A stretch of 37,587 nucleotides of DNA from contig JAQVOH010000015.1 of the NCBI GenBank assembly GCA_028702695.1, forward strand, positions 1-37,587, in the 5' to 3' direction. The position numbers were made by a program, and so were the translations under genes. Shown here piece by piece: positions 28,866 through 31,802 of the stretch (the stretch's first letter is position 1; each line of letters starts with the position of its first letter). Under the pieces are notes generated by a model, which saw only the letters and a list, made by a program, of their open reading frames with translations, was not told where the DNA came from and searched no databases. Source of the stretch: Desulfotomaculaceae bacterium. Its GTDB lineage: Bacteria; Bacillota; Desulfotomaculia; Desulfotomaculales; Pelotomaculaceae.

Positions 28866-29171
28866 TCAACCTGCGATAGGTTGTTCATAGATCAGCCCTT
28901 CGACCTGCAGTCTATGAAATAGAGCCCAGGCGCCCACCCGGGATATCTTAATCCCCTCCGGGTCAACAACGGCCTCCTTGAAAATATAAACCTTAATCCC
29001 GTCGGCAATAACTTCGTCGAACTTTTCGGGCAAATGCGGTTTGCCTGCGGACACGGCAGGCTCATTAACTACTCCCCCTCACCCGCTCACCATGACCAGA
29101 TCCACAGTAACGGAATCAGACCTATCGAGAATATATTTCTTGGCGTCTTGGGAAATCTCGATCTTGAACAT
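28866..29171 (-). CDS. Candidate selenoprotein (in-frame TGA as Sec31)
   Basis: From ATG 29171 (GGGGGTTG upstream) the frame gives MFKIEISQDAKKYILDR, then VTVDLVMVSG, a TGA at 29079-29081 (codon 31), then GGVVNEPAVSAGKPHLPEKF and DGIKVYIFKEAVVDP to the stop at 28866-28868; 101 residues if TGA is selenocysteine. Both halves read as one protein of a kind I recall as the 'CC/Se motif' (seleno)proteins of Moorella and Desulfotomaculum-like bacteria, in which Cys or Sec occupies this spot. A SECIS-type hairpin follows. Function is unknown; a redox or metal role is inferred. The alternative is a nonsense-mutated pseudogene. Confidence 0.72.
29043..29061 (-). promoter_or_regulatory. Bacterial SECIS-type hairpin after the TGA
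   Basis: In the mRNA, GCCUGC and GCAGGC form a 6-base stem with the apical loop CGUGUCC. The loop starts 23 bases after the UGA, and G is its second base, followed by U. Bacterial SECIS elements have a short stem, a small loop with a G among its first two bases, and this distance, so that SelB can bind. Confidence 0.65.
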
Positions 29172-29388: not shown

Positions 29389-29403
29389 ACTAAAAAATAC
29401 ATA

Positions 29404-29669
29404 AACCGTTGAGCAAGAGAAGTACGAAAAATTGGGTGTATCCAGAGAGCTGATACCTGGTGTGAATTCAGCAGCACAGATTTTTCCGAATGGACTTGCG
29501 AGGGCAGCTTGAAACCAGTCGCTGGGAGTAGACGCTGACGGGAACCCTGTCCGTTATCAGTGGGGTGCATATGATGGTATGCAAAATGAGTGGGCGATGT
29601 AAATCGTCAATTTGGGTGGTATCGCAGAAGCTTAGGCTTTTGTCCCTATAAGGGGGCAAAGGCTTTTTT
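29404..29669 (+). promoter_or_regulatory. T-box leader (tRNA-Trp specific)
   Basis: The 5' part has AGAAGTACGAAAAA and GAGAGCTGATACCTGGTGTG (stem I with its AG-rich and distal loops). The 3' strand of stem I reads CCGAATGGACTTGCG, giving the specifier UGG (29491-29493) followed by A, the usual GAA-UGG-A layout, which pairs with the tRNA-Trp anticodon CCA. The T-box core TTGGGTGGTATCGCAGAAGC (29612-29631) forms the antiterminator, in competition with the terminator at 29636-29669. Uncharged tRNA-Trp would let transcription enter the trp genes. All parts appear intact. Confidence 0.93.
29636..29669 (+). terminator. T-box regulated terminator
   Basis: GCTTTTGTCCC pairs with GGGGGCAAAGGC over 11 bases around TATAA, followed by six T. 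Confidence 0.92.
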
Positions 29670-29723
29670 ATTTGTATTGATTAAGAATCCTACTTCTAGT
29701 GTAAATGAAAGGGGGCTTGAAAA

Positions 29724-30667
29724 ATGTTAAAAGGTCGGTTTGGCAGGCATGGGGGTCAATATATTCCCGAGACGCTGATGAACGCAGTCCTTGAACTGGA
29801 AGCGTCCTACGACCGTTATAAGAACGATTCGGCATTTATACAGGAACTTGAGGAGTTGCTCAAAAATTATGCCGGACGGCCCTCGTTGCTCTACTATGCG
29901 GATAAGATGACCCGCGATCTGGGTGGCGCGAAGATATATCTCAAACGCGAGGACCTCAATCATACCGGTTCTCACAAGATCAACAATGTGCTGGGGCAGG
30001 TACTTCTGGCCAAACGTATGGGCAAAACCCGCGTCATCGCAGAGACCGGCGCCGGACAGCACGGTGTTGCCACGGCAACAGCCGCCGCCCTGATGGGAAT
30101 GGATTGTGAAATATACATGGGCAAGGAGGACACAGACCGTCAGAGGCACTCAATGTTTTCCGCATGGAGCTATTGGGCGCACAGGTGCATGTGGTGACCA
30201 GCGGCACGCAAACACTGAAAGATGCCGTGAATGAAACGATGCGTGAGTGGACCCAGCGTGTCCAAGATACGCACTATGTGCTTGGCTCTGTGATGGGCCC
30301 GCACCCGTTCCCGACCATTGTCCGCGATTTTCAAAACGTCATTGGCCGCGAGGTCAAACAGCAGCTGCTGGAAAAGGAAGGCAGGCTTCCCGAGGTGCTG
30401 CTGGCCTGTGTTGGCGGCGGCAGCAATGCGATGGGACTGTTTTATGATTTCATCGAAGATGCAAACGTCCGTCTCATTTGCTGCGAGGCAGCCGGACATG
30501 GTGTTGCTACTGATAAGTCTGCTGCAACCATAGCAACCGGCACGGTCGGTATTTTCCACGGCATGAAGTCCTACTTTTGTCAAGATCAGTACGGTCAGAT
30601 TGCCCCGGTATATTCCATTTCGGCGGGGCTTGACTATCCGGGTATGGGTCATGAAGCAGGCCATTGA
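29724..30667 (+). pseudogene. trpB: Tryptophan synthase beta chain, frameshifted and truncated
   Basis: The N-terminal part reads [20 protein letters not shown] and has the PLP lysine in [13 protein letters not shown], then [14 protein letters not shown]. After MGKEDTDRQ the frame breaks. Removing AG at 30144-30145 (a CAGAG dinucleotide repeat) restores GAC CGT CAG GCA CTC AAT GTT TTC and joins [27 protein letters not shown] and [13 protein letters not shown]. It then ends in an unrelated tail, GHEAGH, so about 85 C-terminal residues are missing compared with the usual 395-400. AAAGGGGGC precedes the ATG. It lies straight after the Trp T-box. Confidence 0.93.
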
Positions 30668-30703
30668 ATAGTCGAAATTATATATATAAAGGGAGAGATT
30701 TAA

Positions 30704-31216
30704 TTGATTAAAAATATTTAACAGAAATTGACCACAAAAAAAGACCTAACGGCAGAAGAAATATACAGCTTGATTGTGGCAATTAAAAATGACCAGTTAA
30801 GTGATGTGCAGATTGCAGGCTTTCAAGTGTCTCTTTTAATGAAAGGACCAACGTTGACGGAAATTACGGCCATTGCTCAAGCGATGCGTGACAATTGTAT
30901 TAAAATTTCCCCAGCGGTAGAAGATGAACTCATGGATACCTGTGGTACCGGTGGCGGACTGAGCACCTTTAATATCTCCACTTCGGTAGCCTTTGTAGCA
31001 GCTGCCGCCGGTATTCCGGTGGCGAAGCACGGCAGCCGGTCCATCTCCAGCCTTTCCGGCAGCGCTGATGTTTTGGAAGCGCTGGATGTAGAAATCAATC
31101 AAAGTCCTAAAAGTGTCGAGAAGCTGATTGAAGACATAGGGATTGCCTTTCTTTATGCGCCTTTGTTTCATTCGGTAATGGGTAAGGTGCTGCCACCGGA
31201 AAAGGATCTGCGCTGA
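30704..31216 (+). pseudogene. trpD: Anthranilate phosphoribosyltransferase, nonsense mutation and C-terminal truncation
   Basis: The original start is TTG 30704 after AAAGGGAGAG. Codon 6 is TAA (30719-30721), where homologues carry a leucine-like residue (MIKNI-stop-QKLTTKKDLTAEE). The rest is well kept: DELMDTCGTGGGLSTFNIST, PVAKHGSRSISSLSGSADVL, then APLFHSVMGKVLPPEKDLR, where the sequence stops at about half the normal 340 residues. A TTG at 30728 could restart translation, but the second half of the enzyme is absent, so it cannot be active. Confidence 0.93.
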
Positions 31217-31217
31217 T

Positions 31218-31802
31218 ATGCTAATACCGGTACCCTGGAACCTGACCACGGCCAAAGCCAGGGGGCTCATTGAAGGGGTTCCTCCCTTTGTCAGCACCTG
31301 TGTGGTCACCGGTGGGCCGGTGGAAAAGGTATGGAAGATCGTCAATGAAACTTGTCCTGACGTAGTCCAACTTCATTATCAAGAAACGCTGCAGGAGGTA
31401 AAAGAATTAGCCCAGCAGTTCAAATTACGAGGGATTAAAACCATCAAGGCTTTGCGTATGGATGGTAACGGGAATTGTGATTTTGAACTTGCTGAGCCTG
31501 TCAAGGCAGCCCGGGCGCTGGCCAAAACCGGAGTAGCGGCGCTGCTGGTGGATTCCTATACCGCAGCCAGGCCAGGTGGTTCAGGAGTTTTGGTTGACAT
31601 AGCAACCTTTCGGACCATACAACAAGAGAGCGCTCTGCCGGTGATCCTGGCGGGTGGCCTAAGTCCAACGAATATCCTTGCGTTAATCCATGAGACCCAC
31701 CCTTTTGCAGTGGATGTCTTGACTGGGGTTGAAGCGAGCCCAGGCCATAAGGATCCAGAGAAAATTCACAGCTTCATGCAGAGTATTCAGGGCCATATTT
31801 AG
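31218..31802 (+). pseudogene. trpF: Phosphoribosylanthranilate isomerase, N-terminus deleted
   Basis: From about NLTTAKARGLIEGVPPFVST onward the sequence is a normal TrpF: PDVVQLHYQE, IKTIKALRMDG, ALLVDSYTAARPGGSG with the catalytic Asp, VILAGGLSPTNI and FAVDVLTGVEASPGHKDPEK. The first 30-35 residues, with the VKICGI segment and its catalytic Cys, are absent. The join with the trpD fragment lies near 31213, so one deletion seems to have removed the trpD end, trpC if it was present, and the trpF start. The ATG at 31218 lacks a ribosome site. Confidence 0.88.

Follow-up and report, generated by a model that had tools for sequence, protein, structure and literature searches.

A cysteine-free selenoprotein with a predicted IscA-like fold in a Desulfotomaculaceae bacterium

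Results

Gene structure and genomic context

The window, that is, the whole stretch of DNA that was analysed, comprises 37,587 nucleotides of contig JAQVOH010000015.1 (assembly GCA_028702695.1). On its minus strand, a gene for a 101-residue protein is located at 29171-28866. It begins with an ATG codon (29171-29169), which is followed by 30 sense codons, an in-frame TGA at codon 31 (29081-29079), another 70 sense codons, and a TGA stop (28868-28866) with a second in-frame TGA directly after it. A G-rich ribosome site, GGGGGTTG, is present upstream of the ATG. Promoter-like hexamers (TTGAAA-16-GATAAT, 29245-29218, minus strand), which were assigned by consensus match only, and a terminator-like hairpin on the 3' side (28825-28799, minus strand; 10 pairs, six of them G-C, with a T-rich tail) complete the frame of a stand-alone unit. 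The original prediction had described the same succession of ribosome site, 30 codons, TGA, 70 codons, and terminator, and this frame is confirmed; the strand, which it left unstated, is minus. The peptides that it quoted and the SG-U-GG context of codon 31 are exact in the minus-strand translation. A plus-strand reading of 28866-29171 was rejected because none of these peptides matched. As had also been foreseen, the standard open reading frame list contains just the 62-residue downstream part (29054-28866); gene callers halve this protein or overlook it. The complete product has no cysteine residue over its whole length.

On one side the gene adjoins a spore-germination permease gene in convergent orientation, and on the other a trp fragment. 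No metal-resistance gene is adjacent, and the neighbours give no hint of function. On the plus strand (29400-31802), a T-box leader precedes a broken trp operon, in which trpB is split into two frames (29724-30197 and 30164-30667) and cut short, and trpD is truncated at 31216 and followed by a trpF fragment. The broken operon reflects either decay or an assembly error.

Family membership and the selenocysteine column

The read-through product matched NCBIfam NF041239, the 'CC/Se motif family (seleno)protein', with a whole-protein score of 92.5 bits (E = 1.3e-26), far over the curated cut-off of 40 bits. The match covers residues 3-93 (profile positions 2-91 of 91) on both sides of the TGA, and Sec occupies the Sec/Cys motif column. 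This is exactly the 'CC/Se motif' family to which the original prediction had likened the two halves. It already appears, with the motif CxxU and one Sec, in an inventory of prokaryotic selenoproteins from 2026, and that entry gives neither function nor fold (PMC13188914). The announcement of a new selenoprotein gene thus holds for the selenoprotein and fails for the family; the window gene is an additional member of one already listed.

Of 113 genomes from the class, 45 contain the family, and its copies often include exactly one TGA. A sample of 398 genomes from the phylum contained it in 90; some genomes of the same taxonomic family have no copy. Close loci belong to Pelotomaculum and other Desulfotomaculaceae. 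The genome of the window itself has three copies, of which two contain the TGA and the third has Cys. The two nearest relatives of the Sec gene (76% and 73% identity) both carry the TGA. Among 78 distinct homologues, the Sec column is occupied by TGA (42), Cys (31), Thr (2), Tyr (2), or Trp (1), so that 73 have Sec or Cys at the place where the original prediction proposed to look for them. A TGA elsewhere in the domain occurs in a single homologue out of the 78. The match of one curated family, together with TGA at the same column in 42 of 78 relatives, places the Sec frame far beyond chance.

The Trp, Tyr, and Thr residues in a few relatives suggest that Sec is not indispensable in every family member. 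In a same-genus homologue (L051, 3001-3273, minus strand), Trp (TGG) is found at the column in an otherwise intact frame, possibly through loss of Sec by a single base change. At another place, two adjoining copies on opposite strands (L058 and L056) have one Sec and one Tyr at the column.

Cysteine partners near Sec vary among the 42 Sec members: CxxU was found in 14, UxxC in 10, UxC in 8, and no nearby Cys in 7. The CxxU motif of the inventory, which is descriptive and outside the curated cut-off, is therefore not general in the family, and it is absent from the window protein, which has a lone U. The matched domain contains no further Cys in five Sec members, including the window copy. The window protein, having no Cys, cannot form an internal selenosulfide.

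Selenocysteine decoding

The genome of the window encodes the full decoding machinery that the original prediction asked for. The selA (617 bits) and selB (388 bits) genes lie side by side, tRNA-Sec (selC, anticodon TCA) is on the same contig, and selD (396 bits) itself contains one TGA. The reading thus withstood the computational tests that had been named for overturning it, namely absence of these four genes and homologues with neither Cys nor Sec at codon 31. The region after the TGA showed dN/dS values of 0.08/0.29 and 0.15/0.61 against the two nearest relatives (ratios of about 0.28 and 0.25), a calculation made on the downstream part because the upstream part has too few codons for a reliable estimate. 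This purifying selection indicates that the downstream part is translated and needed.

A SECIS-like hairpin with six pairs, GCCUGC[CGUGUCC]GCAGGC, is located at 29061-29043 on the minus strand and is conserved across homologues. Its loop (CGUGUCC) begins 23 nt after the UGA, with G and U as its second and third bases. The hairpin agrees in spacing and loop G with the bacterial SECIS model, in which the loop lies 16-37 nt after the UGA and G is among the first two loop bases (PMC13188914). Taken alone, the window hairpin is unremarkable: its folding z of -0.29 carries no folding-energy signal, and all six pairs arise in 12% of codon-usage draws given the protein. Therefore, the case for a SECIS element rests on comparison across homologues. 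Nearly all close Sec copies share GCCUG[C/U]-CGUGUNN-[G/A]CAGGC at an invariant distance of 20 nt from the U of the UGA. Across the 34 Sec copies that align without gaps, pairing holds in 97.5% of the cells, and 29 of these copies form all six pairs, compared with a mean of 4.3 copies (maximum 12) after random choice of synonymous codons. The corresponding values for 34 Cys and other copies are 70% of the cells and three copies with all six pairs. The loop-closing pair alternates between C-G and U-A in a compensatory manner, and residues 39 and 42 follow it as Ala-Ala (20) or Val-Thr (10); where the column has Cys, the two residues are free to vary (Val-Glu, Leu-Glu, Val-Ile, and others). This is a clean case in which an RNA hairpin sets amino-acid pairs of a protein.

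Nine distant relatives in eight genomes (L123, L124, L125, L127, L128, L129, L130, L131, and L132, at about 320-800 in each) have two adjacent TGA codons at the Sec column, as in RGUUTAFYAPSG. They possess their own downstream hairpin, with the loop GGUU, GGUC, or GGCU and a stem that varies by compensation (CCAUCA..UGAUGG, CCGUCA..UGACGG, and CCGUUA..UAACGG). This branch probably contains vicinal Sec-Sec, that is, two Sec residues in contrast to the one given for NF041239 in the inventory (PMC13188914).

Predicted fold and remote homology

An AlphaFold2 model of the window protein was built with 28 sequences (pLDDT 79.6, pTM 0.71). In a Foldseek comparison with the PDB, the top matches of this model were E. 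coli IscA, SufA, and other A-type carriers. The matches are modest (probability 1.00, best E of 0.0018, TM of about 0.5), and unrelated folds gave E > 1. The best matches in a viral fold library were again IscA-like proteins.

Sequence comparison approached the same superfamily by an indirect route. The window protein matched no Pfam family at E <= 1, so the gathering score of PF01521 was not reached, and no solved structure was matched significantly when the family profile served as the query. Six of 50 family members weakly matched the PF01521 or SufA models (best PF01521 value 0.021), and a TGA-bearing relative (L138) matched the SufA and IscA_HesB_Se models at about 1e-4. HesB-like selenoproteins were found in three related genomes. 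In a profile comparison, the NF041239 family matched them with E = 4e-6, with Sec aligned to Sec, and they in turn matched solved ErpA/IscA-type structures at 3e-25 to 7e-7. The link to IscA is thus drawn from the fold comparison and this HesB bridge, the direct profile search against structures being empty. On the basis of the model and the alignments, the window protein probably has an IscA/HesB-like fold, and NF041239 would form a diverged branch within the HesB/IscA superfamily, in which Sec takes the first cluster-ligand position.

A-type carriers have three ligand cysteines, one in an SGCSG turn and two in a C-terminal CxC. In the window protein, Sec replaces the first of these ligands, and the C-terminal CxC is absent. 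Because it also lacks a Pfam match over the cut-off, we do not file it as an A-type carrier, although it may work like one.

Association of other family copies with ArsP

Other copies of the family adjoin genes for ArsP permeases, ArsR regulators, an SBF-family transporter (ACR3-like by sequence), and heavy-metal P-type ATPases. ArsP, the gene for which an expectation was computed, occurs within 5 kb of 10 of the 82 family places, compared with 0.91 expected. The ArsP-adjoining copies are distributed over seven genomes, compared with 0.9 expected, which corresponds to P of about 2e-5 if the genomes are independent; they are related and independent only in part, and this count overstates their independence. 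One of these cases is the second TGA copy of the window's own genome (L082, G000 contig C117), which has ArsR, PadR, and two ArsP genes in its vicinity. A plasmid search gave no match. At some places, among them G091:C109:2993-3880 and G101:C13:19701-20588, the nearly full-length match to an ArsP_1 permease gene itself includes a single in-frame TGA; these genes are possible selenoprotein permeases.

Discussion

The gene at 29171-28866 is almost certainly a selenoprotein gene, and the comparative evidence for Sec insertion at codon 31 is strong. SelB and Sec-tRNA would decode the UGA as selenocysteine owing to the SECIS hairpin downstream. The rival reading takes the TGA as a genuine stop codon and the sequence beyond it as a remnant or an independent small gene, and could point to an assembly of 186 contigs and to the broken trp operon next door. 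It is very improbable, because a pseudogene or a sequencing error is hard to reconcile with the same TGA in both nearest relatives and in 42 homologues, with the hairpin, and with selection after the TGA.

We consider it probable, though well short of assured, that the best explanation as a whole is a SECIS-decoded, IscA-like selenoprotein that may act as a metal(loid) carrier or buffer. As a divergent member of the HesB/IscA superfamily, the protein would place Sec31 where IscA has its first cluster-binding Cys. Sec31 would then be the sole soft ligand. Each protomer would offer a single selenolate, which probably pairs with that of another protomer in an oligomer. Such a small carrier or buffer may bind a soft metal or metalloid through the selenolate or take it over from another thiol. 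The metal(loid) part of this proposal is suggested by the other family copies beside ArsP permeases; for the window protein itself, we put it forward tentatively. More speculative by a small step is the view of an A-type carrier relative rebuilt around selenium, in which a Cys-free scaffold handles a metal(loid) or cluster by a single selenolate per protomer and the wider family includes a two-Sec branch.

Two other functions were weighed against the carrier or buffer, and both seem unlikely, to a similar degree. Sec31 could belong to a selenol redox enzyme, in which it reduces peroxides, disulfides, or an external thiol or becomes oxidised by them. A redox activity is presumed for most selenoproteins that lack a characterised function (PMC13188914). 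In addition, CxxU (14), UxxC (10), or UxC (8) adjoins Sec in many family members, and in L133 a putative thioredoxin-like frame directly follows a family copy. However, the window copy has no Cys and 7 of the 42 Sec members have no nearby partner, so a resolving thiol would have to be external (thioredoxin or a low-molecular-weight thiol) or be replaced by an intermolecular diselenide. Moreover, the predicted fold resembles IscA and not thioredoxin. The SG-U-GG turn had originally been called redox-type; its sequence is exact, but the redox label lacks support, and the best structural relation is to IscA/HesB carriers. That relation would also suit a carrier of iron or Fe-S clusters such as IscA, in which a cluster is held between the selenolates of at least two protomers and external ligands. 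The IscA/SufA fold match and the profile link to HesB-like proteins favour it, and the role could be vacant because a standard PF01521 protein is absent from the genome of the window and from most relatives. However, the C-terminal CxC ligands of IscA are missing, and the role cannot be essential because the same taxonomic family contains genomes without any copy.

In the literature searched, we found no earlier report of the fold assignment, the Cys-free variant, or the ArsP association, and a search for selenoproteins together with ArsP returned nothing relevant; an earlier report on ArsP or IscA may exist. The family had been 'hypothetical' in the inventory consulted, and the IscA/HesB scaffold, together with the metal(loid)-efflux neighbours of some copies, now provides a concrete hypothesis.

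Compared with NF041239 as listed, where it is predicted in Moorella thermoacetica, the window protein has the full-length match, the Sec/Cys column, and the small single domain in common, but its lone Sec without Cys differs from the CxxU of the inventory. The HesB-like selenoproteins (TIGR01911 and NF038090) likewise have Sec in a G-U-x-G turn, which aligns to the same position, and a common fold is predicted. However, they retain C-terminal Cys residues that the window protein lacks, and it matched neither of these two models at E <= 1. The IscA, SufA, and ErpA carriers (PF01521 and TIGR00049) share the predicted fold and the first ligand position; they have Cys and a C-terminal CxC, whereas the window protein has Sec in place of that Cys, no CxC, and no sequence match above the cut-off.
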